NCBI GenBank assembly: GCA_023665245.1
Contig: JAMPEH010000001.1
Location: 310,001-374,000 of the forward strand
Source: Muribaculaceae bacterium
GTDB taxonomy: Bacteria; Pseudomonadota; Alphaproteobacteria; Rs-D84
Direction: 5' to 3'
DNA: 64,000 nt
The first letter of the stretch is position 1. Each line of letters begins with the position of its first letter. Of the stretch, positions 4,556 through 62,519 are shown piece by piece. The position numbers and the translations under genes were made by a program. The notes under the pieces are model-generated. The model did no database searches and was not told the origin of the DNA. It saw only the letters and a program-made list of their open reading frames with translations.

Positions 4556-4765
4556 CAAAAACCACCGAATATTTCAGGTGGTCGGGAAGTTCGAAAAATC
4601 ATATAAGCTAAATGACCACGCAGTCTTTGGGTAAGCCCTGTTGTATAACTGCGACAACCCGACCAATATGTCGGGATAACGGCATTGCGCCATTGTTAAT
4701 AACGACGCAATTCGCGCCGAGCTTATAAGGGATTTTCGAAGTCCCGAATCCACAACCGTGAATTC
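4556..4765 (-). promoter_or_regulatory. Structured 5' leader RNA, type C, copy 1
   Basis: Read on the minus strand. The promoter is TTGTTT (4796-4801), 17 bp, TATAAT (4773-4778), putting the start at the first base of hairpin P0 (GAATTCAC...GTGGATTC). P1 is GGG...CCC with loop UCGAAAA (4733-4739), complementary to UUUUCGA (4591-4597). The next helix P2 pairs UAUAAGCU with AGCUUAUA. The strand GGUCGGG can pair with upstream CCCGACA or downstream CCCGACC. An inner arm pairs CGCAG with CUGCG around GGGcuuaCCC. It ends in an ACCACC...GGUGGU hairpin and U-run before the gene at 3946. Confidence 0.85.
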
Positions 4766-4839
4766 AAAACAAATTATAATGCGCCCACGCCACAAAAACA
4801 AGAATTAAAAATTATACATAGTACATACATTCAGTATGG

Positions 4840-5185
4840 TGAATTGCCACCGCCTTTGGCGGGGGCTGTCAGGTTTTGCCTGACTGGGGGTGGCTTAAAA
4901 TATGCAGAATATATTAACTGGATTGCCACACTTCGTCCGTCTTCGCTGACGCTGCGACGCGACTCGTTCGCAATGAATCCGAGTATGCGAGAATTTGTTC
5001 GAACAACTATCGAGGATACGCGCAGATGCATCGCATCAAGCGACACATGAACCTAGCACTAGGACAGTCGAGGAACACACTGGCCCCGTTCTTCAACGGG
5101 GTGACGAATGTTTTAAGTTTTGTCTCCATGTTTTACACACTCTCGTCATGCCGTTGCAGAACGGCATCCACTGCGCCGCAGGCAC
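4840..5185. repeat. Block of dispersed intergenic repeats (444-bp gene-free interval 4810-5253)
   Basis: Four modules recur elsewhere in the window. 4847-4900 (CCACCGCC...GGCGGGGGCTGTC...GGGGGTGGC) recurs near 51855. 4920-4985 (ATTGCCACACTTCGTCCG...CGTTCGCAATGA) recurs near 51525. 5055-5105 (CTAGCACTAGGA...CAACGGGGTGACG) recurs near 16930-17100, 21965, 27295 and 34620. 5139-5180 (CGTCATGCCGT...ACGGCATCCACTG) recurs near 21775, 27365 and 43336. Each module is palindromic or half of a palindrome. No credible gene is seen here. Confidence 0.8.
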
Positions 5186-5212
5186 TATTATAAAAAAATT
5201 ACAAATAAACAC

Positions 5213-5241
5213 TTGCAATGGTTAAAAATATATGTAATAAT
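5213..5241 (+). promoter_or_regulatory. Predicted promoter of tRNA-Gly
   Basis: TTGCAA (5213-5218) lies 16-17 bp upstream of TAATAAT (5235-5241), 12 bases before the mature tRNA start. Confidence 0.65.
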
Positions 5242-5253
5242 ACCTGACGCAAT

Positions 5254-5330
5254 GCGAGCGTAGCTCAGTTGGCTAGAGCGCAACCTTGCCAAGGTTGAGG
5301 TCGAGGGTTCGAGCCCCTTTGCTCGCACCA
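5254..5330 (+). tRNA. tRNA-Gly (anticodon GCC)
   Basis: A 77-nt cloverleaf has acceptor stem GCGAGCG/CGCTCGC, D-arm AGCTCAGTTGGCTAGAGC, anticodon stem CAACC/GGTTG around TTGCCAA, T-arm with GGTTCGAG, and an encoded CCA end. Confidence 0.97.
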
Positions 5331-5337
5331 AAGTTTG

Positions 5338-5366
5338 AAAAAACACCCAACAGGGTGTTTTTTATT
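5338..5366. terminator. Bidirectional intrinsic terminator
   Basis: AAACACCC (5341-5348) pairs with GGGTGTTT (5353-5360) around AACA, with T-runs on both sides. It serves tRNA-Gly on the plus strand and the convergent Cys-rich gene on the minus strand, whose stop codon it abuts. Confidence 0.85.
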
Positions 5367-6063
5367 TTGTATAATGACAATCGCTGGTGTATTTATATGT
5401 ACCGGTTCTGTCTGTGAATGTTTTGTTCATTGGGATATAGCAATCTGTTATAGCGAGAGTCCCGCCCAAAACCGTATCTGTTGTTGCCTTAGGTGCGCCA
5501 GTAACTGGACTGGTGGCAGGACATTTTTTGCATCCTTCTAGATAATCACTGATAGAATCGGGTGTGTCATACGGTTTTCCATACCATCCAGGCGCACATG
5601 CAATAAGACTGGGGTTTTCAATATAGCAGAAATAATCATAATCCTGTGTGTCGTACATAAACACAATTCCGCGATATTCTGTATCGCCATCGTCAATTGA
5701 TGAAATCATACCGGTATCGTATTTGCCGTACAGACAGTTGTAGCACTCATCGTCTATGTCATCGTCCAGGCAATCCTGATATCTGTCATAACGTTGATAG
5801 CGGCTGTCGTCATCGATTGTGCATTCAAGTGTATCGGTATTAAATGTTATTCGTCCACGGCTGCGCAAGGTAAAGGCATTTGGGTCGGGATTACTCACTT
5901 GAAAACAAGACAAACATGCCTGTTTGGTGGTTTGATTGCGAATATTATTACAGCCATCATACCAGGTTTGGTAATATGGCACATGCGACGATATTTCGTC
6001 GGCATACGCCAATGGCGACAATATTGACAGTACCGTGGCGCCAATTAAAATTTTGTTTTTCAT
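5362..6063 (-). CDS. Secreted Cys-rich protein of the leader-associated family (233 aa)
   Basis: A signal peptide (MKNKILIGATVLSILSPLAYA) is followed by an acidic, Tyr-rich mature region with paired Cys. The protein ends CYIPMNKTF...TGTYKYTSDCHYTK. It is the closest paralogue of the gene at 33786: both start MKNKILIG, share a conserved CAPGWYG/CAAGWYG segment and have nearly the same C-terminus, so they arose by duplication or share strong constraint. The start is fixed by AAAGGAGG 8 bases upstream, and that GGAGGUU is complementary to the AACCUCC strand of the preceding leader. Function unknown; probably extracytoplasmic and disulfide-bonded. Confidence 0.82.
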   Translation of the reverse strand: MKNKILIGATVLSILSPLAYADEISSHVPYYQTWYDGCNNIRNQTTKQACLSCFQVSNPDPNAFTLRSRGRITFNTDTLECTIDDDSRYQRYDRYQDCLDDDIDDECYNCLYGKYDTGMISSIDDGDTEYRGIVFMYDTQDYDYFCYIENPSLIACAPGWYGKPYDTPDSISDYLEGCKKCPATSPVTGAPKATTDTVLGGTLAITDCYIPMNKTFTDRTGTYKYTSDCHYTK

Positions 6064-6093
6064 TCTTAAACCTCCTTTTCATTGTTGTGAATG

Positions 6094-6259
6094 AAAAACC
6101 ACCTGAATTTAAGGTGGTTGGAGGTTCATAGCTATAAGTCAGATATAGTGTGCTTATTTATATATATCGCAACCCTCCAACCGAATTGATTGGAGTTTTT
6201 TACGTCCGATGGACGCTGACTATACGGGCTATGACACCCCAATATGGCAACTGCCATAT
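6094..6259 (-). promoter_or_regulatory. Structured 5' leader RNA, type A, copy 2
   Basis: Minus strand. P0 is AUAUGGC/GCCAUAU (6242-6259). The P1 loop UCAUAGC (6228-6234) matches GCUAUGA (6126-6132); both differ from the usual UCGAAAC/GUUUCGA in a compensating way. P2 pairs AGUCAG/CUGACU, followed by a small CGUCC/GGACG hairpin. The middle strand UUGGAGGG can pair with upstream ACUCCAA or downstream CCUCCAA. The terminator is ACCACCU...AGGUGGU plus UUUUU, ending 30 bases before the start codon at 6063. The promoter is less clear here (CATTAT at 6265-6270). Confidence 0.85.
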
Positions 6260-6303
6260 CGCACATAATGGTATACTATTGTATTAGAAACTGCAATAAT
6301 TTA

Positions 6304-17245: not shown

Positions 17246-17427
17246 GACGACGGGTGTTCCGTTGTCGGGGTGTCGAAACCCTTATAGTGTTGCCCGGTAT
17301 ACGCTGGGCATAAAGATAAACTCCAATCATTTTGGTTGGAGGGCTTGCGAATATATTGAATAAGCAGCACTATTACACTATATAGTTTCGAACCTCCAAC
17401 CGTCTGAAATATTTTCAGCGGTTTTTT
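17246..17427 (+). promoter_or_regulatory. Structured 5' leader RNA, type A, copy 3
   Basis: Promoter TTGCCC (17210-17215), 17 bp, TAATAT (17233-17238) places the start at about 17245. P0 is GACGACGG/CCGTTGTC (17246-17266). The P1 loop TCGAAAC (17273-17279) matches GTTTCGA (17385-17391). P2 pairs TATAGTG/CACTATA. A GCCC...GGGC hairpin follows, then ACTCCAA and GGTTGGAGG, the latter also complementary to CCTCCAACC after the pseudoknot. The terminator is ACCGTCTGAAA...TTTCAGCGGT plus T6, 27 bases before the ATG at 17455. Confidence 0.88.
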
Positions 17428-17454: not shown

Positions 17455-18012
17455 ATGAAAAGCAAAATTTTGACCAGTGCTGTTTTGATATCATTGCTGA
17501 TACCAGCCGAGGGGATGTCTGATATAATTATAGTAGGTGAAGATTATTTAATAAGCCCACTATATTATCCTGACCCGACATGTTCTCTTGGAACAACGGA
17601 TAGATTTAATTGTGTATCGGGTATGAACATCGCACAATTTTATGCTGAATCCGAAAGGGTTGGTACAAACAAGCTTTATATAAATTATAGTAAGTATGTC
17701 ACCGTCCAAGATACCACCCCGTCTGAATACGGTTGTGGGTATAGTGGTGCAGTATATGATTTATATAATTGTTCTATAGATATGTGGGTATGTCATAATG
17801 GTGATTATTGGGATGACATGACAGAAACATGCCGCCCATGCCCGCAGGCAACGAATTATACAAATGTTATATACAGTTCGTCGGAAAGGGTGGATCCAGA
17901 AGATAGTGGACCTGAAATGTGCTATATTACAACCGACGGGGGCACAGACCATACAGGTATATTTGTATATAATGGCAGCAAATCTTGTTGGTATGATGAT
18001 TCTGGCAGTTAA
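17455..18012 (+). CDS. Secreted Cys-rich protein of the leader-associated family (185 aa)
   Basis: The start at 17455 has GGAGG 7 bases upstream and begins a signal peptide (MKSKILTSAVLISLLIPAEG). The mature part is rich in Tyr, Asp and Cys. It ends with a diverged form of the family motif: MCYITTDGGTDHTGIFVYNGSKSCWYDDSGS, so the final Cys-Trp-Tyr is followed by six extra residues. No catalytic motif is seen. The preceding leader and the C-terminal motif tie it to the genes at 3946, 5362, 25677, 26574, 33786, 50796 and 52803. Confidence 0.8.
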   Translation: MKSKILTSAVLISLLIPAEGMSDIIIVGEDYLISPLYYPDPTCSLGTTDRFNCVSGMNIAQFYAESERVGTNKLYINYSKYVTVQDTTPSEYGCGYSGAVYDLYNCSIDMWVCHNGDYWDDMTETCRPCPQATNYTNVIYSSSERVDPEDSGPEMCYITTDGGTDHTGIFVYNGSKSCWYDDSGS

Positions 18013-25472: not shown

Positions 25473-25641
25473 ATGTGTGGTATTCACACATTGGGGTGTC
25501 GTAGCCCGCGAATTTGGCGTTCAGAAATGGACGAAAGAATCTCCAATCAAATTTGGTTGGGGGGCTGTGAATATATTGAATATCAGCACTATACCAAATT
25601 ATAGCTACGAACCTCCAACCACCGAAATTCCGGTGGTTTTT
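25473..25641 (+). promoter_or_regulatory. Structured 5' leader RNA, type A, copy 4
   Basis: Promoter TTGCGT (25436-25441), 18 bp, TATCAT (25460-25465) starts transcription at about 25472. P0 is ATGTGTG/CACACAT. The P1 loop is TCGTAGC (25499-25505) and its partner GCTACGA (25604-25610), both changed relative to copies 3 and 6. P2 pairs AATTTGG/CCAAATT. A CGTTC/GGACG hairpin and the ACTCCAA / TTGGTTGGGGGG / CCTCCAACC strand set follow. The terminator ACCACCG...CGGTGGT plus T5 ends before GGAGGTTTT and the ATG at 25677. Confidence 0.88.
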
Positions 25642-25676: not shown

Positions 25677-26198
25677 ATGAAAAACAAAATCATATTATAT
25701 ACCGCAGGGGGGCTGATGCTGAATATTCCACCGGCATTTGCATTAAGTTGGGTGAACCCGTCTGAGTGTGTTGATTGCAGAGATCCAATCGATGGTACAT
25801 GTACACAAACCGGTATTGGATGTTGTGACCCGTGTGCGGCGATTGGTGGAGAAATCAAACCAGTCACCTGTGATGAATCAACCTGTTCGGGGCAAACTGT
25901 GTCTGACGGGGATACATGCACCCAAACCGAAACGATGGGATGTCAAAACTTGCTTTGCCAAGTTGTCAGCACAACCGTACAATGTAAAAAAGGATACTAT
26001 GGTATGTGGCCATCGTATGATTCAGATACCAAAACTTGTTCGGGTTGCACCCGATGCCCGGCCAAGGACGGATATTATGGCACCACGTGGAATGCTGGGG
26101 CTATCACGGCGACATCATGCTATCTGCCGTCGGGCACACCGTTCAGTGACGCCACCGGCACCGGCATTTACGGCAGTGATTGTTATTGGGCCGGTTAA
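25677..26198 (+). CDS. Secreted Cys-rich protein of the leader-associated family (173 aa)
   Basis: GGAGG lies 7 bases before the ATG at 25677; an earlier in-frame ATG would put the ribosome binding site inside the gene. A signal peptide ends near NIPPAFA. Mature Cys occur in close spacing (ECVDCRDPIDGTCTQ, CCDPCAA) and the C-terminal motif is CYLPSGTPFSDATGTGIYGS-DCYWAG. The N-terminal half with its short Cys intervals differs from the paralogues. Function unknown. Confidence 0.8.
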   Translation: MKNKIILYTAGGLMLNIPPAFALSWVNPSECVDCRDPIDGTCTQTGIGCCDPCAAIGGEIKPVTCDESTCSGQTVSDGDTCTQTETMGCQNLLCQVVSTTVQCKKGYYGMWPSYDSDTKTCSGCTRCPAKDGYYGTTWNAGAITATSCYLPSGTPFSDATGTGIYGSDCYWAG

Positions 26199-26326: not shown

Positions 26327-26541
26327 GAAATCAATCAGATGTTGGTTTCGGGACGTCGAAAATCCCTTAATTATCCGGTGCAATGCATCGTTAAAATCTG
26401 TCACAGCAACGGTTGTTGCTGAACCTGACGCGTAATGGGTCGGGTTGTGTCGGTTATATAACAGGGTTCGCCCAAAGGCCGACAGGTCATTGATAATTAT
26501 GATTTTTCGAACTTCCCGACCACCAGTGATTTGGTGGTTTT
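26327..26541 (+). promoter_or_regulatory. Structured 5' leader RNA, type C, copy 5
   Basis: Promoter TTGTTT (26291-26296), 17 bp, TATACT (26314-26319) starts at about 26326, one base before P0 (GAAATCAA/TTGGTTTC). The P1 loop TCGAAAA (26356-26362) matches TTTTCGA (26504-26510). P2 pairs TAATTATC/GATAATTA. After a GGTGC/GCATC hairpin comes the strand GGTCGGG, complementary to CCCGACC (26515 on) and partly to upstream sequence. The inner arm TGTCGG/CCGACA encloses GGGttcgCCC. The terminator is ACCACC...GGTGGT with a T-run. Confidence 0.88.
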
Positions 26542-33574: not shown

Positions 33575-33755
33575 GACGACGGGTGTTCCGTTGTCGGGGT
33601 GTCGAAACCCTTATTATGTTGCCCAGTGTATGCTGGGTATGAACCAAACTCCAACCTTTTACGGTTGGGGGGCTGTGATATATTTGAATAAGCAGCACTA
33701 TTACATAATATAGTTTCGAACCTCCAACCGTCTGAAATGTTTTCAGCGGTTTTTT
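33575..33755 (+). promoter_or_regulatory. Structured 5' leader RNA, type A, copy 6
   Basis: Promoter TTGTTA (33540-33545), 17 bp, TATCAT (33563-33568) starts at about 33575, the first base of P0 (GACGACGG/CCGTTGTC). The P1 loop TCGAAAC (33602-33608) matches GTTTCGA (33713-33719). P2 pairs TATTATG/CATAATA. Hairpin CCCAG/CTGGG follows. CTCCAACC (33649-33656) and CCTCCAACC (33721-33729) both complement GGTTGGGGGG (33663-33672). The terminator ACCGTCTGAAA...TTTCAGCGGT plus T6 precedes GGAGGTT (33774-33780), which is complementary to AACCTCC. Confidence 0.9.
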
Positions 33756-33785: not shown

Positions 33786-34484
33786 ATGAAAAACAAAATT
33801 TTAATTGGTGTCACGGCATTGGCCATAATGTCGCCATTTGACATACGCGCTGAGATATTATCATCACATAATTATACTACATCAGAAATTTACGATAAAT
33901 GTTGGGAACCATACCGTAATTCCACCGCACAAACCGTACCACAAATTGTTGACGCATGTATGGATTGTTTCTTTCTGTATGATGGCGTTATTAATACAAA
34001 AAAATTTCGCAGAAAAGGTGAAATCAGATTTAATACCAATGTCGGTTCGTGCAGCGACATAGAACCCGACAGGTATTTTTATGTTGATACATACAATCAG
34101 GTGCCAGATTGGGCTGCATCAGACTTTATAGATGGTGCGGAATGGTGTTTATACGGAAAGAGTCACGAAATCGCGCACTTAGACGAAGGCGAAGACCAAT
34201 ACACCGGTATTGTATTTCGATTTGATGATTCTGGTGACGAGGAACACGAATGTTATATCGAAGATGCCAGTCTGATATCATGTGCCGCCGGATGGTATGG
34301 ATTCCCATATGATGACTATGATCTTTTGTTGTATGGTTGTACCAAGTGCCCCGGCAATGGCACATCTGACCCGAAATGGGGGCGCAGCACCAGTATAACA
34401 GATTGTTATATCCCAATGAATACGAAATCTTCTGATCTCAGTGGAACATATAAATACACCGACGATTGCTATTATACAAAATAA
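33786..34484 (+). CDS. Secreted Cys-rich protein of the leader-associated family (232 aa)
   Basis: A signal peptide (MKNKILIGVTALAIMSPFDIRA) precedes an acidic, Tyr-rich mature protein. The C-terminal motif is DCYIPMNTKSSDLSGTYKYT-DDCYYTK. It is the paralogue of the gene at 5362: similar length, same start MKNKILIG, shared CAAGWYG/CAPGWYG and CTKCPGN/CKKCPAT segments. GGAGG lies 7 bases upstream of the ATG. Probably a disulfide-stabilised extracytoplasmic protein; function unknown. Confidence 0.82.
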   Translation: MKNKILIGVTALAIMSPFDIRAEILSSHNYTTSEIYDKCWEPYRNSTAQTVPQIVDACMDCFFLYDGVINTKKFRRKGEIRFNTNVGSCSDIEPDRYFYVDTYNQVPDWAASDFIDGAEWCLYGKSHEIAHLDEGEDQYTGIVFRFDDSGDEEHECYIEDASLISCAAGWYGFPYDDYDLLLYGCTKCPGNGTSDPKWGRSTSITDCYIPMNTKSSDLSGTYKYTDDCYYTK

Positions 34485-37700: not shown

Positions 37701-40700
37701 TGCCATCACTGTACCAACCTTTGCCAACAGCCTCGCATGCGTCTGCTGCTGTCGTTGTTGCATGGTAATATCCTGCGACACATTTTGTAACATTATAATT
37801 TGTGCACTTTGTTGCATCATATACATATTGCAGGGATGCATTGGCAGGGCACTTTGCAGTACCAGCTGTTACATGCTTGGCATCTGATGTATATGCGACA
37901 TTACTCTTATAGCACTGTGTCACATTTGCTGCACCTGCATCAGACGATATATTCAATGCGCCGATCACAAAGTCTGGACAAGTGCTAAGGCCACATACTT
38001 TGCCGTTGTTAGAACTGCAAGTACTTTCACCAGTACAGTAGTAGCCATTTTTACATGGTTGACAATTTGTTTCATCGCCTGTACCCGGATAGTATTTACC
38101 CGCCGGACATTTAATTGGTGCTGTTTGCCATATTGCCGTTATAACCATGTCATCAGACGGTGTCAGTTTGTTGACATTAAAGTTTCCACTGGCGTTTACA
38201 ACCTCGGTTCCATCGGTGTATTCATATCCGCCGAACGTATCGCCTGAACCATTTGGTATTGACGGGAATTTGGTCAGTTTTGTTCCTGTTGCCACCGCAT
38301 CAGAATACCAGCCTTCGCCATATTTTAAATATATGACAATATCTGGGGTTCCGTGCTTCGCATCACGTGCCGTCACAGGGTATACACGTGGTGTCCATTT
38401 TGGATACAATGTCATTGCAGACATGCGATTGGCCGGAATTGATGTTATACGGCTGCCAGACAGATTTGCCTGTTCATACCATCCATCAAAGACATATCCT
38501 GTCTTGGAAGCGGTTGGCAATGTGCGGTTTGCTGTTTCAACGGTAAAGTTGAATATCACATTACCACTTAATGTATAGCCTTCGCCATTAGCATATTCAT
38601 AATATGTAATAGACCAGCCTGCACCAACAACACATGTTGGGGATTCTGTGCCTGCATCGCTATTTGCAGGTTGTGGAACATAGCCATCAGAACATTGAGC
38701 ATTATATTTACATGCCGGATATGTGTCATTAGAAGTGATAAACTGCTGTGCATCAACCGGATTCTTTTGTCCGATTTTTGCGCCCGCATCAGACATTATG
38801 TCTATGGCTTTGCACTCAACAAAGCAACGTGACTTGTCTGCTGTTGCGGTACCTGCTGTTGTACCATTGCCCGGACATTTAATCTGCATACATGTATCAT
38901 TGTCTGTTGTCGGGTTCGCATTACAGATGCCTGCTGGTCTGTAATAACCTTTTTCTGTTGCAGCGCAATAACCTTGCTTTGAATTGCCTTCTTTGATAGG
39001 TACATAATATCCACCATCGCAAGATTTTACAGTCGCATTACAGTTTTGTTCATATACTGCGCTGCCATTTACACCGCTGGTATATTTACAAGACGTGTCA
39101 GCTGTTCCGTGTGAAATAGTGACATTAGTCAGTGTTTCAACACATTGTGTTTGTGCAGTTGCACCAGATTCTGACGACAAAGTACCACCTTTTGCACTGG
39201 TCGGACATCTGACAAAGCAACCCTCGGCGCCTTGGTATGCAGTATTTCCTGCAACATTACCCGGACAGTATGTTCCAGACAGGCAGTCCGCCATCAGCGT
39301 GCCAACACCGGTATAATATTTGCCAGCCACACAAGTGATTGGAATACCATGCCATACAGCCTTTAATTCTGTATCTGCGGTAAACGTAGGTTTCGCATTT
39401 ACAAATGTTCCATCTGCCTTGATTACAGTGTCACCATCTGCATTTGTATATCCTGCAAAATCATAGTTCGCACGTGTTGGAACCGTTATCTTGGGGATAG
39501 ATGTTGTTGCCGCTGCATTAGAATACCATCCAGTATTATACTTTGCATAAATGTCACTTTGGTTTGTACCACCAGTATAATTTATGTTCAGTTTAATTGT
39601 GTACACACTGGGCACGCATGTTGCGGTTGCAGTATTTTGATTCTGTGGTTCATAACCTGTGGCACATGTTGCGGTATATGTACATACCGGATACGTCTTT
39701 GTCGTTGTGTCATAGTTCATTGGTTTATTAACCGCTGTTCTATTTCCAATTGTCTTGCCGGACGCATCTTTGATTGCCTCGCTTTGTGTGCACTCAATCA
39801 AGCACTGTGTTATTTGTTCTGATTTTGTGCCGGCTGTTGTACCTGGTGTTGGACATGCCTTCTGCATACAGTTATCATTTTCTGCATTGGTCCAATTGGT
39901 ATTACATGCCCCCGCTGCGCGATAGTAACCTTTGTCAACAGGTGCGCAATAGCCTTGCTTTGAATTACCTTCTTTGATAGGCACATAGTATCCACCGATA
40001 CAAGACTTTACAGTATAAGAACAGTCTTGTGCATATATTGCATTACCATCAGTTCCGCTGGTATATCCACAGCGCTTATCGGCCGTACCGTTTTTGATTT
40101 TGCTGTCATTTTGATCGAATATATCCACATCAACCAATGTTTCAATACAGGCAGATGCACTGGTCGCTCTGGCACTAGATGTTGTCAGTGTGCCGTTGTT
40201 CTTACTCTTGGGGCAGGCAACATAGCATCCGGCCGTTCCTGTGCCAATTGCCGCTTTGCCAGTGCCCGGGCAATACCAACCACGACCCGCAGGGCAATCC
40301 AACATTGTTTCGCCTGTACCCGGATAGTATTTACCCGCCACGCACTCTAATGCGCCCTGAACACAGACCTTGTTTACCGGATCCCAATCATAGTTAGTAT
40401 CACATTTTGGAACATCTGGGCTGTCGCCAGGACATGTTGCATGTTCTGGGCAGTCTGACCATTTTGCATAGAAGGTCTTATTCCCTGTAGATGTTGTACT
40501 GATTGTTTGTGTCATGAAACAATTAGTCAATGCAGATTCTGTGCACCAACCTGCAAACAGATATCCAGTACGTGACGGCTTGCCGGTAATTGTTGCGCCA
40601 ACGCCATATGTATATGATGTCGGTACCCCAGACGTCGCATTTGTTCCGCCGTTCAGGGTATACGATATGGTATATGTAATTGCAGTACATGACGGATTAT

Positions 40701-44866: not shown

Positions 44867-45249
44867 ATCTGCTTTTCCATTATAATTGCGTCCACACCAT
44901 CATAATATTTGGGGCGTGTGCCAACGGTATGATATCCATTTTTTTCATACAATGCGCGTGCGGCGGCGTTATTTTCTGCAACCTCTAAGAATATCTTTTT
45001 GGCACCACGTTTTGATGCGTCGTTTTCTGCGATGGCCAACATAGCCGCCGCGATTCCGCCACGTCGTGCGTCTGGTGCAACACCGATAGTTATGATTTCT
45101 GCTTCATCTGCGACAACGCGATATACAATGAATCCGTTTTGACTGGCGATAATATCACAGCCAGATTTTTTCAAATCTGCAAAATCTGTGGCCGCCCACG
45201 GTTTGTGTGGAAAGCATTTCGCATGTAAATCGGCCAGCATGTTTATCAT
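44863..45249 (-). CDS. rimI: Ribosomal-protein-alanine N-acetyltransferase
   Basis: GNAT fold: the acetyl-CoA loop is IGVAPDARRGGIAAAML near residue 60-75, and EVAENNAAARALYEKNGYHTVGTRPKYY is the RimI-type C-terminal half. Length 128 aa is slightly short. It overlaps tsaB by 4 bases; the tsaB-rimI pairing is common in bacteria and supports the name. Confidence 0.85.
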   Translation of the reverse strand: MINMLADLHAKCFPHKPWAATDFADLKKSGCDIIASQNGFIVYRVVADEAEIITIGVAPDARRGGIAAAMLAIAENDASKRGAKKIFLEVAENNAAARALYEKNGYHTVGTRPKYYDGVDAIIMEKQI

Positions 45250-45797
45250 TTTTTGTTTTCTTCGGCATAACTGGGGCGCAGATACATTGGTACCGCCGGT
45301 GCGTTGTCGCCATGTGCAATTTTATTCGCAACGATTTGCGGCGCCAGTTTCAAGTCAAATGGTTTATGTCCAACAGTGCGTGGCCAATCCATCTGGCGTG
45401 TTTCCAGTTCATCAATTTCCATTGTGCATGGCGCCATGTTTGCCGCACCGACAAAGAAATCACCACGTCCGGAATCAATCGCGACAAATGCGTCTGGTGT
45501 GGCTGCCAAATATAATTCAAATGCATTTATTGGCACAACAGGGATGTTTAATCCCAACCCCAACCCTTTGGCGTATGCAATGCCAAGTCTGATGCCTGTA
45601 AAACTGCCTGGGCCGACAACAACGCCAATCGCGGTTAAGTCAGACCATGATTTGCCACATTGTGCGATAAACTGTTCTGTCGTCGCGGGCAGGGCGGTTG
45701 ATTGTTTTTCAGCCTCCACATGCGCATATTTGTCACCCAACACGAATTCCAGACCCGCCCCAGACGTGTTTATAATCAAAATGTTATCATTATTCAT
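45246..45797 (-). CDS. tsaB: tRNA threonylcarbamoyladenosine biosynthesis protein TsaB
   Basis: TsaB is the partner of TsaD in t6A37 formation. The N-terminal ILIINTSGAGLEFVLGD and the ASKHA-type VVGPGSFTGIRLGIAYAKGLGLG (about residues 60-82) are diagnostic. Length (183 aa) is at the short end. It starts 9 bases after the stop of the truncated lon gene. t6A is also the substrate of MtaB encoded at 11744. Confidence 0.92.
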   Translation of the reverse strand: MNNDNILIINTSGAGLEFVLGDKYAHVEAEKQSTALPATTEQFIAQCGKSWSDLTAIGVVVGPGSFTGIRLGIAYAKGLGLGLNIPVVPINAFELYLAATPDAFVAIDSGRGDFFVGAANMAPCTMEIDELETRQMDWPRTVGHKPFDLKLAPQIVANKIAHGDNAPAVPMYLRPSYAEENKK

Positions 45798-45806
45798 GTT
45801 ATGCCC

Positions 45807-47567
45807 CTATGCACGGATGCCGAATCCAATACGCTTTGAAAATCCAGCACTTTGACGGATTGATAACAGACTGTCGATTTTATCAATCGTGAATTCGGTC
45901 GGTGTATCTTCGCCATCATTTTCCAATAACTGGCGACGCAAAATCGCAGTCAATTCGCGTTGCAATTGGCGCACGCCCTGTTCAGATGTGTATGCATTTA
46001 TTATATGACGCAACGCATCATCGTCAATCGTTATGTTGTTGGTGTCCCATCCTGTATCGCGTGCGGCGCGTGCAATCAAGTGTTCACGTGCAATTTGAAC
46101 TTTTTCATCCAAACTGTATCCTGGGATTTCAATGATTTCCATGCGGTCTTTTAATGCGTTGGATAAATTTAAACTGTTCGCGGTCGCGATGAATAATACA
46201 TTCGACAGGTCAAAGTCAACTTCCAGATAATGGTCGCGGAAATTCTTGTTTTGTTCCGGGTCCAGTATTTCCAACAATGCAGATTCTGGATCGCCACGCC
46301 AATCGCGCCCCATTTTGTCGATTTCATCTAATACAATTACAGGGTTATTCGCCTTGCATCGTTTCAGTGCATCCATAATGCGCCCAGTCTGTGCGCCAAT
46401 ATAGGTCTTGCGATGGCCGCGGAAATGCGCTTCGTCTGATATTCCGCCCAATGAAATACGATGATATTTGCGTCCCAATGCCGACGCAATTGATTTCCCC
46501 AGTGACGTTTTACCAACGCCCGGTGCACCAACAAAACACAAAATACTGCCGTGATTACTGTGCGTCTTTTTCATAACAGCAATGTGTTCCAAGATGCGTT
46601 CTTTGACCGGTGTCATTCCTGAATGTTCTGAATTCAGGACATTGCGTGCCGTCTTTAAATCAATTTCATCATGGTCAGATTTTGCCCACGGCATAGCCAA
46701 CAATTCTTCTAGGTATGTTTTTATCAGGCCACCTTCGTTTGACATTGGTGATAGGCTGCGCATACGCCGCCATTCGCCCATTGCTTTTTCTTTTACCTCA
46801 GTTGGCAATGGTGCTTTTTCAATACGCTTGCGCATGGATGCAGAATCGGCTTCTTCGGTATCTTCGCCCATTTCTTTTTGCAGTGCGCGCATTTTTTCTT
46901 GTAATATTGCCTCGCGCCGGCCAGTTTCCATCTGGTGTTGGATACGTTTATTAATAGAATCTTCAATTTTTGCCGTTTCTGCCAGCAAGTTTACCTGTTC
47001 TAATAACAATATCAGTTTGTCACGCCATGATGGTGTGGCCAGAATCTTTACCGCACAATCCGTATCAATTTCCGCCATCCCAATCACAGAATCAATAAAT
47101 GCAGGTAATGGATAGTTCTGAATAATATTGCGCAGTTTGTCCATTTTTAATTTGCGGCTGACCGCCAGCAATTGCATATTATCCGCGATTTTGTCACGCA
47201 GCGCCAATGTTGTGTCAAACGCCATATCGTCCGCTAATTCAATATTTGTGGGCACACCCATAAACAGGCCGTTATCAACAGTGACGTCATCTAAGTTTAC
47301 CGCATGCGTTGTGCGTATAACGGCATGGATTGCACCGTCCGGCATGTGCAGAACCTGGGTTAAATCACCGATTGTGCCCACATGATAAATGTCGTCTGAT
47401 GCGGTCGGGTATGCCCACGTATGCTGGGCAGCAACGATTAATCGTTTGGAACCATTTGCCGCGGCATTAACGCATGCAACAGATTGCGGGTTATCAATAT
47501 ACACCGGCAATGTCATGCCTGGGTGTACAACTAAATCACGAAGAGGCAGGATATATTCTTTATTCAT
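45807..47567 (-). CDS. lon: Lon-like AAA+ ATPase without the protease domain (586 aa)
   Basis: The N-terminal substrate-binding domain (LPLRDLVVHPGMTLPVYI, coiled-coil EKMRALQKEMGED) and AAA+ module are complete. Walker A is GAPGVGKTSLGKSIA, Walker B VIVLDEIDKM and the Lon signature YIGAQTGRIMDAL. The protein ends LSIRQSAGFSKRIGFGIRA, where ordinary Lon enters its roughly 200-residue Ser-Lys protease domain. tsaB begins 9 bases later, so the domain is deleted, not frameshifted. It would be an unfoldase without proteolysis, or a remnant kept for another role. TTGAAA, 16 bp, TATATT lies close upstream of the start. Confidence 0.9.
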   Translation of the reverse strand: MNKEYILPLRDLVVHPGMTLPVYIDNPQSVACVNAAANGSKRLIVAAQHTWAYPTASDDIYHVGTIGDLTQVLHMPDGAIHAVIRTTHAVNLDDVTVDNGLFMGVPTNIELADDMAFDTTLALRDKIADNMQLLAVSRKLKMDKLRNIIQNYPLPAFIDSVIGMAEIDTDCAVKILATPSWRDKLILLLEQVNLLAETAKIEDSINKRIQHQMETGRREAILQEKMRALQKEMGEDTEEADSASMRKRIEKAPLPTEVKEKAMGEWRRMRSLSPMSNEGGLIKTYLEELLAMPWAKSDHDEIDLKTARNVLNSEHSGMTPVKERILEHIAVMKKTHSNHGSILCFVGAPGVGKTSLGKSIASALGRKYHRISLGGISDEAHFRGHRKTYIGAQTGRIMDALKRCKANNPVIVLDEIDKMGRDWRGDPESALLEILDPEQNKNFRDHYLEVDFDLSNVLFIATANSLNLSNALKDRMEIIEIPGYSLDEKVQIAREHLIARAARDTGWDTNNITIDDDALRHIINAYTSEQGVRQLQRELTAILRRQLLENDGEDTPTEFTIDKIDSLLSIRQSAGFSKRIGFGIRA

Positions 47568-47890: not shown

Positions 47891-47926
47891 ATCATGTTCC
47901 TTTTTGTGTTTTAATAATCAATCGAG

Positions 47927-48243
47927 TGTCGGGTTTCTGGTGCCAGGTACCCGACCGACCCCGCAATCGCTAAAACGGATATGTCAACAATCGCCAACAA
48001 TATCCAACGCCATCTTAGGCAGCCATTGCAAAGCGAACATTGTCGTTCGCAGCGATTCTATCGCCATTCAGTTTTTGTTTTGGTGTTTAACGACAACCGT
48101 GTCGGATTCACCCAATTTGTCTTTCGTCATCTGTCGAATCTATATCATCCCCATAATTTTTATTGGTGGAGATGCCGGGTACCGCCCCCGGGTCCAAAAT
48201 GATTATTGCACAATGGATTCAGAATCATCATCGCGTTTGCGAC
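47927..48243 (-). ncRNA. ssrA: Circularly permuted two-piece tmRNA
   Basis: On the minus strand the acceptor piece comes first and ends CATCTCC-A-CCA (CCA at 48164-48166), with a T-arm CCGGG/CCCGG. An 11-base spacer follows, then the coding piece starting GGGGATGATATAGATTCGAC (48152 down). GGGGATG pairs with CATCTCC, giving the G3-U70 wobble that AlaRS needs. The tag frame (48053-48015) encodes AANDNVRFAMAA then TAA. GTCGGGT/ACCCGAC near 47927-47955 closes the 3' end. The outer ends are approximate. Its partner smpB is at 15847. Confidence 0.9.
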
Positions 48244-48249
48244 ATTCGT

Positions 48250-48294
48250 ATTATAAATATTCGTACTGGAAAATGCAAGTTTTTAAGTTATAAT
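48250..48294. promoter_or_regulatory. Divergent promoters of ssrA and obgE
   Basis: Minus strand: TTGCAT (48273-48278), 17 bp, TATAAT (48250-48255) for ssrA, starting near 48243. Plus strand: TATAAT (48289-48294) for obgE with a weak -35. Confidence 0.75.
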
Positions 48295-50597: not shown

Positions 50598-50767
50598 ACA
50601 TGGGGAATTCCCATGTTGGGGCGTCGAAACCCGGAATCCATTGTCCACGTGACATAAAAAATAACTCCAACTTACTTGGGTTGGAGGGCAGTGAATATTT
50701 TGAATAAACCCGCTATAATGGATTATAGTTTCGAACCTCCAACCACCAACGAAAACGGTGGTTTTTT
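50598..50767 (+). promoter_or_regulatory. Structured 5' leader RNA, type A, copy 7
   Basis: A likely promoter is TTGTTA (50561-50566), 17 bp, TACACT. P0 is ACATGGG/CCCATGT (50598-50616). The P1 loop TCGAAAC (50624-50630) matches GTTTCGA (50728-50734). P2 pairs AATCCATT/AATGGATT. A TGTC/GACA hairpin follows, and the ACTCCAACTT / GGGTTGGAGGG / CCTCCAACC set is present. The terminator ACCACC...CGGTGGT plus T6 ends 28 bases before the start at 50796. Confidence 0.87.
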
Positions 50768-52552: not shown

Positions 52553-52770
52553 TCATTGGGAATTCCAATGATGGGGTGTCGAAACCTCTGCTTGTGCGTC
52601 GGAATATAATATGGGGCGCGGTTATGCGCTGTTTTTTATATTTTGATGATGTTATCTCCTGATCATTCTGGTCAGGAGGGCTGTGAATAATGCGCACCTG
52701 CGCAGAATAAGCACACAATTCACAAGATTGTTTCGAACCTCCTGACCACTCAAAGACTTGGGTGGTTTTT
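52553..52770 (+). promoter_or_regulatory. Structured 5' leader RNA, type A variant, copy 8
   Basis: Promoter TTGATT (52517-52522), 17 bp, TATAAT (52540-52545) starts at about 52552. P0 is TCATTGG/CCAATGA. The P1 loop TCGAAAC (52579-52585) matches GTTTCGA (52730-52736). P2 pairs CTTGTG/CACAAG. Here the exchange strands are CTCCTGA / GGTCAGGAGGG / CCTCCTGACC, a coordinated change from the CTCCAAC set of other type A copies. The ribosome binding site CAGGAG follows suit and is complementary to CTCCTG. An extra TGCGCA/TGCGCA arm is inserted. Terminator ACCACTC...GGGTGGT plus T5. Confidence 0.88.
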
Positions 52771-52802: not shown

Positions 52803-53429
52803 ATGAAAACAAAAATATTATTAATATCATGCATGGCGATGCTGTGTACTGATGCATTCGGCGATTGTGGCTCAGAGAACAATTTGTGCTATGCGAATAA
52901 TATGAAACTCGCAGACGGAAGCTTATATCGTCGGGGATACTATTATGAAGGTGCTAGCCATACCCCAACATATGTTAACAAGATTTGGGTTCAGGGCTGT
53001 GCCGACGGATATTATATGCCATCAAATGCGCCCAGGCCAAAATGCACAGGCGGTACGATCACTTTGGCAGGCGGTCAGCTGCCAAAAGATGTGATTAAGA
53101 TTGACGAATGTTGCTGGCCGTGTCCATTCCTGGACCAGGATGAATCGTATCAGCAGTGTTATCGCATAATATATGGTACTGATGCATATGTATCACAGTG
53201 TGATTTGGACTGGTGTCGTGGCAGTGTATCCGGCAAAAATCCGTATGGTGGAATCAACACGTGTCAAATAACCCCAGAAGATACATCTGATTTGCCCGTT
53301 GGGGGCGATAAAACAGGTGAATATGTAATGACAGGGGCATGTCGATTCACAGGTTTACAAACAGATGTAGACAATCAATGCGATTGTTACCCACGTACAG
53401 ATTATGCTAATCAGTATTGTGCAGGTTAA
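52803..53429 (+). CDS. Secreted Cys-rich protein of the leader-associated family, divergent (208 aa)
   Basis: A signal peptide (MKTKILLISCMAMLCTDAFG) precedes a Cys-rich mature part with CCWPCPFLD near residue 100. The motif KTGEYVMTGACRF corresponds to the usual C-terminal one, but here about 24 further residues follow (ending CDCYPRTDYANQYCAG), adding four Cys. GGAGAAAGG precedes the ATG. It is linked to the family by leader, layout and motif. Function unknown. Confidence 0.78.
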   Translation: MKTKILLISCMAMLCTDAFGDCGSENNLCYANNMKLADGSLYRRGYYYEGASHTPTYVNKIWVQGCADGYYMPSNAPRPKCTGGTITLAGGQLPKDVIKIDECCWPCPFLDQDESYQQCYRIIYGTDAYVSQCDLDWCRGSVSGKNPYGGINTCQITPEDTSDLPVGGDKTGEYVMTGACRFTGLQTDVDNQCDCYPRTDYANQYCAG

Positions 53430-57731: not shown

Positions 57732-57758
57732 AAATCCGCCAAATGGCGGATTTATTTT
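57732..57758. terminator. Bidirectional terminator between convergent genes
   Basis: AAATCCGCC (57732-57740) pairs with GGCGGATTT (57745-57753) around AAAT, with A/T-rich flanks on both sides. Confidence 0.85.
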
Positions 57759-58638
57759 ACCAATCTAGGTATGTTGTACCGATATTTATTCCAAACAGAT
57801 AATATCGTATTTTGTTATAAAAAATATCCTTTTTAGCAATTGTTATATTGAACATCTTGAATGTATTTGTATGCACTGGCCATTCATCGTGTGACATTAA
57901 TGTTGTGGCGTTATGCTTAAACAAGAATTCTTGATATTTTTTACCGGCTGCGATGGCTGCAGGCGTATTGTTTCTTTCGTTAATTTTGCTTCTGGATTTG
58001 CCCAGTGCGGTGTCTGTGTCTACCACGTTGTAAATTGCGCTGGGGACAGTGGCAACACTGGTTGCCAAAATGATGGCAGGTTTTGTAAAGTAAACATCTT
58101 GATCACCGAAAATCGCAGATTCGTATCTCAGATTGTTTTGTTTCAAAAACGATTTTTTATACATGTACCGCCATGCAGGATTTAGACGATTTGCCCGAGT
58201 TTTATGAATTTTATCTGATAATTCTGTACAGATTTCAATGGATGCAAATTTTGGAAAGTTGTATTGTGGCTGATTAACCTCGCTGCACATAATATCTGCA
58301 TCGGTCAGTACGGCTGCGTTTATCATCTTTTCAAAATAATCTAAATTCACCCAGTCATCATGATCATGAAAATGAATATATTGTCCGCATGATGCATCCA
58401 TTCCAGTATTCATCGCGACAGATGGGCCAGAATTCTGTTGGGTTATAATCTGAATACGACTGTCAATTTTTGCATATTCTTTGCAAATGTCGACGCATTT
58501 GTCCGTACTGCCGTCATCGACAATTATTATTTCAATATTTTTATATGTTTGATGTACCAAATGTGTCAGACATTTGGATATAAACTTTTCCGCATTGTAC
58601 ATTGGTATGATTACTGAAATTAATGGTGATTGTGACAT
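57757..58638 (-). CDS. Family 2 glycosyltransferase controlled by a structured leader (293 aa)
   Basis: PLISVIIPMYNAEKFISKCL and IEIIIVDDGSTDKCVDIC are the GT2 N-terminal motifs, and HFHDHDDWVN (about residue 90) is the DxD region. It is about 60 residues shorter than the glycosyltransferase at 6304 and not closely related. Uniquely in this window, a non-Cys-rich enzyme gene follows a type C leader. Its AGGAG ribosome binding site lies inside the terminator-like hairpin, 6 bases before the ATG. Substrate unknown; surface glycan synthesis is likely. Confidence 0.87.
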   Translation of the reverse strand: MSQSPLISVIIPMYNAEKFISKCLTHLVHQTYKNIEIIIVDDGSTDKCVDICKEYAKIDSRIQIITQQNSGPSVAMNTGMDASCGQYIHFHDHDDWVNLDYFEKMINAAVLTDADIMCSEVNQPQYNFPKFASIEICTELSDKIHKTRANRLNPAWRYMYKKSFLKQNNLRYESAIFGDQDVYFTKPAIILATSVATVPSAIYNVVDTDTALGKSRSKINERNNTPAAIAAGKKYQEFLFKHNATTLMSHDEWPVHTNTFKMFNITIAKKDIFYNKIRYYLFGINIGTTYLDW

Positions 58639-58844
58639 AAAAAACTCCTGTTCTGTAAACCAGATTAGGAGTCGGGAAGTTCGATAAGTCAGATAACTTT
58701 GACCCTGTGGTTTTTAGACGCGCAAAAAAATGCGCATCCTGTTGTATGGCCACAACTTCCCGACTATTAATGTCGGGATAGTTAGTCAAAACACTTTTGT
58801 GTCAGTTATCTGGGTTATCGACGCCCAACTACTAACTGTGATTG
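58639..58844 (-). promoter_or_regulatory. Structured 5' leader RNA, type C, copy 9, with ribosome binding site inside the final hairpin
   Basis: Minus strand. The P1 loop UCGAUAA (58815-58821) matches UUAUCGA (58681-58687), a compensating change from UCGAAAA/UUUUCGA. P2 pairs CAGAUAACU/AGUUAUCUG, the longest P2. The strand AGUCGGGAAGUU pairs perfectly over 12 bases with AACUUCCCGACU, or with CCCGACA upstream. The final hairpin ACUCCU (58667-58672) pairs with AGGAGU (58644-58649), then U6 and the AUG at 58638: one structure could act both as terminator and as ribosome-site lock. P0 is weak here and the promoter unclear. Confidence 0.85.
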
Positions 58845-60347: not shown

Positions 60348-60361
60348 AATATTCCTCCTAG

Positions 60362-60632: not shown

Positions 60633-60679
60633 TTTTTGTACTCCTTTGAGTTTAGCTGATAAAACCTATATGCTATTTA

Positions 60680-60707: not shown

Positions 60708-60716
60708 GGGCTAAAC

Positions 60717-60738
60717 AATGCCACCGTTTGGTGGCATT
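60717..60738 (-). terminator. Intrinsic terminator of the Cys-rich remnant
   Basis: AATGCCACC pairs with GGTGGCATT around a 4-base loop, just after the stop of the remnant at 60742. Confidence 0.7.
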
Positions 60739-60741
60739 ATT

Positions 60742-60831
60742 CTAATTTTTATAAAAACATTCGCCATCACTAATACCATATCCATCGATATAACAACATG
60801 TGATATTATATCCGCCATAAATTAACCCGCC
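60742..60831 (-). pseudogene. 3' remnant of a Cys-rich secreted protein gene
   Basis: The minus strand has an open frame ending YGGYNITCCYIDGYGISDGE-CFYKN then TAG. This fits the family C-terminal pattern Cys-Tyr ... Asp/Gly ... Cys-x-Tyr at the end, and is followed by a terminator as in intact members. No start, signal peptide or leader is present; upstream is the trailer of tRNA-Ser(GCT). It is probably a truncated relic left by rearrangement beside the tRNA. Confidence 0.5.
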
Positions 60832-60849
60832 ACAAGGGCGGGGAATATC

Positions 60850-60938
60850 TGGCGGAGCGTATAGGACTCGAACCTATGGACCGCTATAACACGGTCACGG
60901 ATTAGCAATCCGCTGCATTACCACTCTGCCAACGCTCC
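60850..60938 (-). tRNA. tRNA-Ser (anticodon GCT)
   Basis: An 89-nt class II tRNA has acceptor stem GGAGCGT/ACGCTCC, anticodon loop TTGCTAA, a long variable arm (ACCG...CGGT), T-arm AGGTTCGAGTCCT and an encoded CCA. Its trailer (CCCGCC/GGCGGG hairpin, TTAATTTATGGCGG) is nearly identical to that of tRNA-Ser(GGA). Confidence 0.95.
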
Positions 60939-61053
60939 GGATTCATGTGGTTGCAGGTGGCATTATAACGATTTCGCAAAATAATTGCAAGTGTGAAAAA
61001 TATCAAAATTTATTTTTGTTGTTAAACCCGGTGAATATGATATACTGGGAATT

Positions 61054-61280
61054 GAATCCATTGGAATTTGGGTTCGGGGCTGTAGTAAGCCTATATTTGT
61101 GCGGTGCGAAAGCATCGTTATATATCTTATACCGGTGCTTTTTGCATCGTTAAATCCCTGACATCGGTCGGGGAGCTGATGGTTATAAAATACGGACAAA
61201 CCGAAAGACCACAGAGTCATTCACAAATATGATTTACTAACTCCCCGGCCGTCAATTTCATTGGCGGTTCTGTTTTTATT
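61054..61280 (+). promoter_or_regulatory. Structured 5' leader RNA, type B, copy 10
   Basis: Promoter TTGTTA (61019-61024), 16 bp, TATACT (61041-61046) starts at about 61053. P0 is GAATCC/GGGTTC. P1 is GGCT...AGCC with loop TAGTAA (61083-61088), matching TTACTA (61234-61239). P2 pairs ATATTTGTG/CACAAATAT. A CGGTGC/GCATCG hairpin follows. TCCCTGAC and CTCCCCGGCC both complement GGTCGGGGAG. The inner arm TGGTTATAAAATACGG...CCGAAAGACCA shares its core with type C. Terminator CCGTCA...TGGCGG with a T-rich tail. Confidence 0.87.
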
Positions 61281-61302
61281 ACATGAACGGTAGGGGATAT
61301 TT

Positions 61303-62229
61303 ATGCGCATATTTTTTATCTGCATCATGGTATTTACCTGTGCTATCGCATATGCTGATTGCGGTTCGGGTATGTATGCCAACGAATTTGGCGAATGTGC
61401 GCAATGCCCAGATAGCACGCACCGTATTGAAGCAGTCGGCGCCATACGCGAATGTGGCCCAGTACTGCGTTTTGACAATGCTGAATATAAATTACAATTT
61501 ACCCAGATGAAATACACATCGCCCACAATGTGTATTGAATACAACGGCAGTACATATTATGCAGGACTGACAAACGAAACAATGGACGCCGGTCCTGGTC
61601 TGCATGCTATGTTTCAAAATACAGAATACGTGACACAAAATCCAGACAAACTGCGTCCATACATGCGGCGTCTGGAATACATCCAGGCAACCGGCACGCA
61701 ATATATCGACACCGGATATTATGTACAATATGGTATTCCTGCCAGTGTCACAATGGTAATCAGTGATGCCATATCCAACGATTCAAACCGCGAATGGAAT
61801 TGGACAGGCGCAAATGCGTTATTGCAGTTGCGTATTATGAAAAACGGATACGACACAACATTATCACAAAGGGGTTCCGAACCCGTCCCATTTGGTGGCG
61901 GCAAAGACAAATTAACCGAATATTTTGACGGGCGTTATACATACCTGGATATAAACGACGCAAAAACAGTTCAAACCCAGGATTGGATAACATACAAGGA
62001 CTATGGCCGGGTTCAATATGGGATTTTTGTACTGGGGTACCCGTCATGGTTTGCCAACACATCACTGATGAAATTATATTCATTGCAATTGACAATTAAT
62101 AACATACTGGTGCGCGATTATGTCCCGGTTTTGGATTGGGATGGGCGGCCCGCACTGTATGATTTTATCAGCAACAAATTATTTTATAATATTGGCAGTG
62201 GTGAATTCCTGTACGGTGAAATTAAATAG
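61303..62229 (+). CDS. Secreted LamG-like domain protein (308 aa)
   Basis: A signal peptide (MRIFFICIMVFTCAIAYA) is followed by a short Cys module (CGSGMYANEFGECAQCPDST). From about residue 120 there is a LamG/concanavalin-like domain: RLEYIQATGTQYIDTGYYV at its start and PVLDWDGRPALYDFISNKLFYN...GEFLYG at its end. Such domains bind sugars or proteins. AGGGGA lies before the ATG, complementary to TCCCC in the type B leader upstream. It lacks the Cys-Tyr C-terminal motif. Confidence 0.8.
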   Translation: MRIFFICIMVFTCAIAYADCGSGMYANEFGECAQCPDSTHRIEAVGAIRECGPVLRFDNAEYKLQFTQMKYTSPTMCIEYNGSTYYAGLTNETMDAGPGLHAMFQNTEYVTQNPDKLRPYMRRLEYIQATGTQYIDTGYYVQYGIPASVTMVISDAISNDSNREWNWTGANALLQLRIMKNGYDTTLSQRGSEPVPFGGGKDKLTEYFDGRYTYLDINDAKTVQTQDWITYKDYGRVQYGIFVLGYPSWFANTSLMKLYSLQLTINNILVRDYVPVLDWDGRPALYDFISNKLFYNIGSGEFLYGEIK

Positions 62230-62292
62230 TTAGGAATATCGTCCTTTAAAGTTTTATTGGAAATTAGCAATATTATTGTTATAATAGGCATT

Positions 62293-62519
62293 GAATCCGA
62301 TGGAAATTGGGTTCGGTGGCTGTGATAAGCCAGTATCAAGTCGGTGCAAGAGCACCGTAAAAACTTTATTGTGTCTCGGTTGCTTTTGCTCCGTGATATT
62401 ATCCCCGTATAACGGTCGGGGTGTTGTTGGTTATAAAATACAGGAAACTGAAAGGCCAACAAAATCATGACTTGATCTGATTTATCACCACCCCGGCCGT
62501 CAATTTCATTGACGGCTTT
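62293..62519 (+). promoter_or_regulatory. Structured 5' leader RNA, type B, copy 11
   Basis: Promoter TTGGAA (62257-62262), 17 bp, TATAAT (62280-62285) starts at about 62292. P0 is GAATCC/GGGTTC. The P1 loop GTGATAA (62322-62328) matches TTATCAC (62482-62488), a compensating change from copy 10. P2 pairs ATCAAGTC/GACTTGAT. Hairpin CGGTGC/GCACCG is perfect. CCCCG and CACCCCGGCC complement CGGTCGGGGTG. The inner arm TTGTTGG/CCAACAA encloses CAGgaaaCTG. Terminator CCGTCA/TGACGG, then CTTTA. Confidence 0.88.

Follow-up and report, generated by a model that had tools for sequence, protein, structure and literature searches.

In this analysis, we report that eleven structured leader RNAs, located within a 64,000-nucleotide (nt) stretch of contig JAMPEH010000001.1 of an uncultured gut alphaproteobacterium (the whole stretch is referred to here as the window), are probably chromosomal descendants of a phage-type antisense module resembling C4 of phages P1 and P7, and that the paired, private codes carried by their two halves are predicted to hold the downstream gene in an off fold. 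The best reading of the element, in short, is a C4-like, code-specific antisense attenuator that has been domesticated and amplified.

Leader architecture and matching of the two halves

From 5' to 3', each leader comprises helix P0; hairpin P1, the loop of which is the first strand of a pseudoknot (PKa); P2a, the first strand of long-range helix P2; P3; P4; P5; P6, which carries P2b; the second pseudoknot strand (PKb); a post-pseudoknot strand; a terminator; and the gene. Two types are distinguished by P5, with conserved internal loops GAATA..TGAATAA in type A (copies 2, 3, 4, 6, 7 and 8) and TTATACAACA..AAAGA in type B (copies 1, 5, 9, 10 and 11). A preliminary description of the window had listed these leaders as sharing one covarying pseudoknotted plan. 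All eleven positions hold, with copies 1, 2 and 9 on the minus strand; the listed pairings of the P1 loop with a 3' strand are present in 11/11 copies, the five P2 pairings offered as examples are there as given, and the single plan is supported by the matching of halves reported below. Promoters had also been proposed for at least seven copies, which is consistent with the -10 hexamers (at least 5/6 matches, 6-7 nt 5' of P0) found in 7/11; random 16-mers reach at least five matches in 11% of cases.

Separately built models of the 3' domain, one per leader type (R1 and R2, with all eleven window copies in training), matched exactly the eleven leader places in the window, and nothing else there, at E ≤ 1e-4. 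The halves were compared in 92 elements, drawn from the window, twenty stretches of a genome of the same family (G081) and thirty other family loci. At a score threshold of at least 40, the 5' and 3' halves of the same element matched in 86/92 elements, compared with 31 of 736 trials in which foreign 3' halves of like type were swapped in, and some of these 31 were elements bearing an identical code in another genome. Among the 86 passing elements, P2a occurred as 78 different strings and PKa as 46. Their P2 cells comprised 651 Watson-Crick, 37 G-U and 12 mismatched pairs, and their pseudoknot cells 622, 6 and 0, respectively, with all four Watson-Crick pair types at each P2 position and three to four at each pseudoknot position. 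The swap test is the real control here, because a score threshold selected the 86 elements and the helices were taken as the best fits. Among 48 G081 elements compared, the first six bases of P2a occurred in 46 forms. A scan with a bare descriptor (P1 hairpin, pseudoknot and P2) gave 20 matches in the window, 11 of them leaders, and 6-19 matches per 64 kb in ten simulated sequences; it was dropped as proof because this chance rate is too high. The leaders are set above this background by the matches of the two 3'-domain models, by the swap test and by the terminator overlap described below.

Two predicted exclusive folds over a terminator

The 3' arm of P4 (GGTTGGAGG and variants) has a second complementary partner in the strand directly after the pseudoknot (CCTCCAACC), an alternative pairing overlapping the terminator that the preliminary description overlooked. 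This closing helix shows copy-specific changes on both strands (copies 8, 9, 10 and 11), and its 3' strand overlaps the 5' arm of the terminator by 2-7 nt in 88/92 elements. Because the P4 3' arm can pair in either way over the terminator, the leader has two exclusive predicted folds and, judged from sequence alone, is an intrinsic attenuator in which the putative terminator excludes an alternative helix. A lenient terminator finder placed a terminator in 92/92 elements (3 misplaced), and a stricter one in 80/92. By nested folding, the terminator-forced fold lay below the closing-forced fold in 84/85 leaders, by a mean of 12 kcal/mol, which makes off the predicted resting state. Sequestration of the ribosome site by the AACCUCC strand was considered and rejected: own complementarity was 13.42 versus 12.91 (standard deviation 0.18) when shuffled within type, a slight excess that was therefore treated as a by-product of purine-rich ribosome sites.

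Relationship to sRNA-Xcc1

The element had been called undescribed. This holds in so far as no Rfam family reaches its gathering score on any leader, and no riboswitch or T-box family, as had been stated, appears over the leaders at gathering score or at E ≤ 10; it does not hold for the 3' half, which scores on RF02221 (sRNA-Xcc1) below the cut-off of 53 bits, the best values being 34.8 bits in the window and 48.1 bits in the six non-Xanthomonas relatives searched, one of which (G003) gave no RF02221 match. The further statement that no known RNA has this plan was mistaken, since true sRNA-Xcc1 loci possess the whole of it and its logic resembles the C4 antisense system. At relaxed thresholds, the 3' halves of copies 1, 7 and 10 match RF02221 over its full length and show its order of features (closing helix, P5 internal loop, P6), the other copies falling below the thresholds used. 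By sequence comparison, the 3' half of the leader is a divergent relative of sRNA-Xcc1, sharing with it the closing helix, a P5 with an AUACAAYA..GGGGAA-type internal loop, P6, and PKb ahead of the closing strand, and the members read in Xanthomonas and in phages carry the same 5' plan. The RF02221 model, however, spans the 3' half only, type A leaders have another P5, and the copies of the gut Alphaproteobacteria end in a terminator.

In Xanthomonas, RF02221 was above its cut-off in 35/35 genomes of the genus, with 1-13 copies at E ≤ 1e-8. The DNA 5' of sRNA-Xcc1 has the P1 loop and P2a of this plan, each matched by its 3' partner, and an internal U-tract terminator lies between the two halves; in a few copies, such as L179, P1 has been lost. 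In published work, sRNA-Xcc1 was mapped as an 88-nt RNA, runs at about 100 nt on Northern blots and has many predicted targets (PMC2996969), and it sits 5' of symE in integron cassettes (PMC12444791). Of four Xanthomonas downstream proteins scanned, two matched the SymE toxin family (Pfam PF08845) and two gave nothing convincing. The SymE genes 3' of the element recall the SymE/SymR type I toxin-antitoxin system; SymR, in contrast, is described in PMC12444791 as a cis-encoded small RNA of E. coli, whereas the RNA here lies upstream on the same strand, a position likewise remarked for sRNA-Xcc1 in that paper. No literature joining sRNA-Xcc1 with an antirepressor was found in a search that did not extend to a 2011 paper on sRNA-Xcc1 homologs.

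Phage loci and comparison with C4

The annotated order in phage P1 is a1, b1, C4 RNA, a2, b2, icd, ant. With a Xanthomonas leader as query, relatives were found in 10 phage records, 14 plasmid records and 289/5426 E. coli genomes, mostly as the 3' domain alone; the copy 6 leader, used as a DNA query against phages, gave no match. In the six phage or E. coli places read (five loci), RF02221 scored 69.1-79.7 bits and the 5' plan was found, P1 of L275 being read by eye after the finder had chosen a wrong one and P1 of the first L277 place being unclear. The next gene is annotated as antirepressor, KilA-N or P22AR in five, and in Smp131 the element lies inside an open reading frame (ORF) annotated as anti-repressor. 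The code is repeated downstream, at the ribosome-binding site, with b2 in 6/6 and a2 with b2 in 5/6 places, among other chance words. From a phylum-wide draw of 20 loci, 13 were located by script (2 badly) and 7 were not; 11 scored at least 44, their having the 5' plan being partly due to this selection, and in 7/11 both a2 and b2 lie ahead of the start codon. Over these 17 places (six phage or E. coli and eleven phylum-wide), both arms recurred as exact words of at least 6 nt within 60 nt in 9/17 own versus 9/272 swapped comparisons, and as words of at least 5 nt in 14/17 versus 44/272. Under strict filters RF02221 was present in 44/398 genomes of the phylum, in 39 above the cut-off. The E. 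coli GMM060 chromosome (L278) has 13 element places, the most among the 5426 genomes, and the place read there precedes a gene with a P22AR domain, which is followed by an ISL3 transposase.

In C4, specificity resides in loop a', whereas b' covers part of the ribosome site; P1 and P7 differ by 4 nt (PMC5320573). The loci described here resemble C4 in the order a1/b1, antisense RNA, a2/b2 and antirepressor, in having two short segments complementary to an upstream site (in 86/92 elements), and in that the specificity segment is the variable one; the window leaders differ from it in being without a2/b2 and ending in a terminator. The C4-like group 1 of Acinetobacter baumannii likewise comprises many chromosomal, phage-derived antisense copies of which only the specificity loop varies; it is assigned to C4, however, and the available part of the source describes no matching leader half for each copy (PMC5320573). 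The motifs c4 and c4-a1b1 are listed by Weinberg 2010 (PMC2864571). The microRNA-size phage RNA 24B_1 was not equated with the element; PMC4426718 places it at lom-vb_24B_43 and predicts sites for it 5' of S and inside d_ant.

Variability of the code

In 20 Xanthomonas leaders of one gene class, diversity was 0.277 in P2a and 0.327 in P2b, compared with 0.006 in P1, 0.046 in the spacer, 0.013 in the 3' domain (0.000-0.046 over the non-P2 segments) and 0.195 at codon position 3. Among 13 G081 paralogs, the values were 0.56 for P2a, 0.49 for P2b and 0.39 for PKa, compared with 0.04 for the closing 3' strand, 0.27 for P5 and spacer and 0.40 for codon position 3. Two paralogs of another genome (L095 and L099 of G004) share a block of about 485 bases, in which 12 substitutions fall in the 33 code bases, compared with 9 in the remaining 453 bases, which take in spacer and coding sites.

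Arrangements hinting at action in trans

A few loci hint that leaders may act in trans. In one genome (G043), a full element that has no ORF precedes a leader consisting of the 3' domain only with its own TATAAT, and P2a of the first element matches P2b of the second unit at 10/10 positions, versus 9/10 for its own P2b. In a G081 cluster (L250 1-1400, minus strand; G081:C11) with five elements in 1.1 kb, several units have a promoter-like box and a terminator and no ORF, and pseudoknot strands match across units, over 9 nt to the next 3'-only unit and, in another case, over 8 nt to a neighbour. Such cases are few; some of the units have a decayed appearance, and with read-through the pairing could be in cis. 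Leaders of which only the 3' domain is left, each with a promoter-like box of its own, lie at L115 1240-1620 and L135 1500-1745 (minus strand).

Amplification and downstream genes

R1 matched 93/95 family genomes, the per-genome counts being lower bounds. In G081 (about 1 Mb), 55 R1 and 21 R2 matches at E ≤ 1e-4, one of them common, give about 75 elements. To our knowledge, no other cis-regulatory RNA occurs at such density (11 in the 64-kb window; about 75 in 1 Mb). In 89/92 elements, an ORF of 25 codons or more was assignable no further than 160 nt away, some of these ORFs being probably spurious, and 45/92 elements lie 5' of an ORF with a strongly hydrophobic N-terminus as scored by a rough script. 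Many others precede small proteins, of which the four scanned showed helix-turn-helix domains, the one with 13 paralogs scoring under the Pfam cut-off. In G081 (L250, L252, L254, L258, L260-L266), there are at least 13 similar helix-turn-helix-like proteins of about 75 amino acids (aa), each with a differently coded leader.

Proposed mechanism and alternatives

In the mechanism that we propose, the 5' arm (PKa loop and P2a) and the 3' arm (P2b and PKb, within the sRNA-Xcc1-like domain) carry matching codes. With the arms paired and P4 formed, the closing helix would be barred and the terminator would form; with the pairing blocked, the P4 3' arm would take the post-pseudoknot strand, the base of the terminator would be broken and polymerase would pass. 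For a protein or ligand that turns the gene on, the best candidate site is the conserved P5 internal loop. Less surely, the terminated leader RNA may also pair in trans with nascent leaders of the same code, and avoidance of cross-talk might drive the divergence of codes among paralogs, by analogy with heteroimmunity in P1/P7. We put forward tentatively, as a possibility short of an expectation, a wider form of this idea: that one small genome operates dozens of private RNA channels, in which every locus makes a leader RNA that pairs, both in cis and in trans, with no leaders but those of its own code, so that heteroimmunity would have become a set of insulated locks on genes for secreted proteins and regulators, with the code rewritten on both arms at each duplication.

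Several observations weigh against the C4-like attenuator. Constant pairing in cis would leave the gene permanently off, and no signal for the ON state was found. The fold energies contain no true pseudoknot terms; once a rough duplex term is included, the pseudoknot state is more stable than the closing fold in only 62/85 leaders. A good 5' match is wanting in 6/92 elements, and in G049 both of two tandem 3'-only units are without a 5' half, no partner arm being found with the one pattern tried. A second copy of the code is not enriched downstream in the gut Alphaproteobacteria (own 11.10 versus swapped 10.87, n = 86) or in Xanthomonas (11.45 versus 11.44, n = 73), and the phage mode is therefore not simply transferable to them. 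RF01695 was unmatched at E ≤ 10 in the window and at E ≤ 0.1 in eight related loci, and model R2 gave no match in a search of two P1 stretches that took in the immunity region; because of these two failures, the element is taken to work like C4 and not to be a member of it. The 60 bases upstream of the Xanthomonas leaders are as diverse as P2 (0.326). Finally, avoidance of shared codes within genomes was not significant among 73 Xanthomonas elements from 13 genomes that fitted a P1 pattern, 3/35 same-class pairs sharing a barcode and 583/5000 shuffles being as low.

The alternative that survives best, although we consider it unlikely, is a plain cis attenuator in which P2 and the pseudoknot are structural only, the code drifts neutrally since pairing is all that counts, and there is no action in trans. 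The lack of significant code avoidance and the fact that own halves usually fit best would suit it, and the rest of the Xanthomonas leader may be fixed by sequence-specific binding, leaving P2 as the sole unconstrained helix. Against it stand the concentration of L095/L099 substitutions in the code, the greater variability of P2 than of third codon positions, the 3'-only leader and cross-unit matches, and the repetition of the code by the start codon in the phage homologs. A metabolite riboswitch, with the P5 internal loop and P1/pseudoknot as aptamer and a ligand selecting either the pseudoknot with terminator or the closing helix, would account for the two exclusive folds and the conserved internal loops, there being no other known activator. 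It appears improbable, because the downstream genes have no obvious common pathway (they encode Cys-rich proteins whose N-termini are hydrophobic, small helix-turn-helix proteins, a glycosyltransferase, SymE and phage antirepressors), about 75 copies occur in 1 Mb, and the code near the start codon in the phage relatives suggests recognition between RNAs.

A shade harder still to accept is that the leaders are mainly free-standing genes for trans-acting small RNAs with many mRNA targets, as is presumed for sRNA-Xcc1, the downstream gene being incidental. The 88-nt RNA with its many predicted targets (PMC2996969) and the ORF-less units of the G081 and G043 clusters point that way, but the assignable ORFs, even with some spurious, and the nearly universal overlap of closing helix and terminator suit a switch. 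A DNA-level element, such as a foldback substrate of a transposase or recombinase that needs matched arms, would explain a dispersed, multicopy distribution that includes integron cassettes (PMC12444791), plasmids and phages, and is very improbable given the -10 boxes before the first helix, the terminators, the phage code repeats near start codons and the RNA detected in Xanthomonas (PMC2996969).

If the C4-like attenuator is correct, it connects an orphan small RNA, sRNA-Xcc1, with C4-style phage immunity, the two having hitherto been described apart, and the antisense logic would have been domesticated and multiplied in an uncultured gut lineage. The natural code pairs would be candidate orthogonal RNA switches, the hypervariable code would make the diversification of RNA recognition specificity after duplication directly testable, and the immunity groups of antirepressors in phages would be predictable from sequence.

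Features of the window

The leaders and other features of the window are listed in Table 1. Copy 6 serves as the worked example; its 3' domain scored 82.2 bits on model R1, copy 6 itself being among the training sequences. The protein encoded downstream of it matched no Pfam family, and among 63 candidates scored there were five protein matches including itself (four relatives), none with a function.

Table 1 Leader RNAs and other features of the window (PK, pseudoknot; AlaRS, alanyl-tRNA synthetase)
Feature	Position	Strand	PKa/PKb	P2a/P2b	Other	Downstream gene
Leader copy 1, type B	4556..4765	-	TTCGAAAA/TTTTCGAA	TATAAGCT/AGCTTATA	closing GGTCGGG/CCCGACC; terminator	3946-4527 (-)
Copy 1, RF02221 match	4573-4663				34.8 bits	
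Leader copy 2, type A	6094..6259	-	TCATAGC/GCTATGA	AGTCAG/CTGACT		5362-6063 (-)
Leader copy 3, type A	17246..17427	+	TCGAAAC/GTTTCGA	TATAGTGT/ACACTATA		17455-18012
Leader copy 4, type A	25473..25641	+	TCGTAGC/GCTACGA	AATTTGG/CCAAATT		25677-26198
Leader copy 5, type B	26327..26541	+	TCGAAAA/TTTTCGA	TAATTATC/GATAATTA		26574-27182
Leader copy 6, type A	33575..33755	+	33602-33608/33713-33719	33612-33619/33703-33710	P0 33575-33595; closing 33663-33671/33721-33729; terminator ~33726 to 33755	33786..34484 (+)
Copy 6, 3' domain	33662..33730	+			closing helix, P5 (conserved internal loop), P6 presenting P2b, PKb; sRNA-Xcc1 relative	
Copy 6, downstream gene	33786..34484	+			232 aa, hydrophobic N-terminus, Cys-rich by eye	
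Leader copy 7, type A	50598..50767	+	TCGAAAC/GTTTCGA	AATCCATT/AATGGATT	RF02221 30.7 bits	50796-51392
Leader copy 8, type A, long	52553..52770	+	TCGAAAC/GTTTCGA	CTTGTG/CACAAG	closing GGTCAGGAGG/CCTCCTGACC	52803-53429
Leader copy 9, type B	58639..58844	-	TCGATAA/TTATCGA	AGATAACT/AGTTATCT	closing AGTCGGGAAGTT/AACTTCCCGACT	57757-58638 (-), family 2 glycosyltransferase
Leader copy 10, type B	61054..61280	+	TAGTAA/TTACTA	ATATTTGTG/CACAAATAT	closing CGGTCGGGGAG/CTCCCCGGCCG; RF02221 33.5 bits, E 2.1e-4 on 247 bases, model positions 1-87	61303-62229
Leader copy 11, type B	62293..62519	+	GTGATAA/TTATCAC	ATCAAGTC/GACTTGAT	closing ACGGTCGGGGTG/CACCCCGGCCGT	hydrophobic ORF, 53 aa
AlaRS	27408-29483	-			691 aa	
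ORF	34720-43188	-			2822 aa	
Lon-like ORF and next ORF	45246-47567	-			586 aa and 183 aa	
tmRNA gene, permuted alphaproteobacterial kind	47925-48282	-			RF01849 161 bits; RF04321 123 bits	
Apparent AccD-AccA fusion	62737-63981	-			one ORF	

In the apparent AccD-AccA fusion, residues 1-115 match the C-terminal part of AccD and residues 140-400 match AccA. The Lon-like ORF matches positions 2-563 of 795, and Lon may be split between it and the next ORF. The AlaRS matches only positions 1-694 of an 847-position model; it is 77-83% identical to those of five metagenome-assembled genomes titled uncultured Alphaproteobacteria or proteobacterium, and because these five relatives align over the same residues 1-691, the short form may be normal in the lineage.

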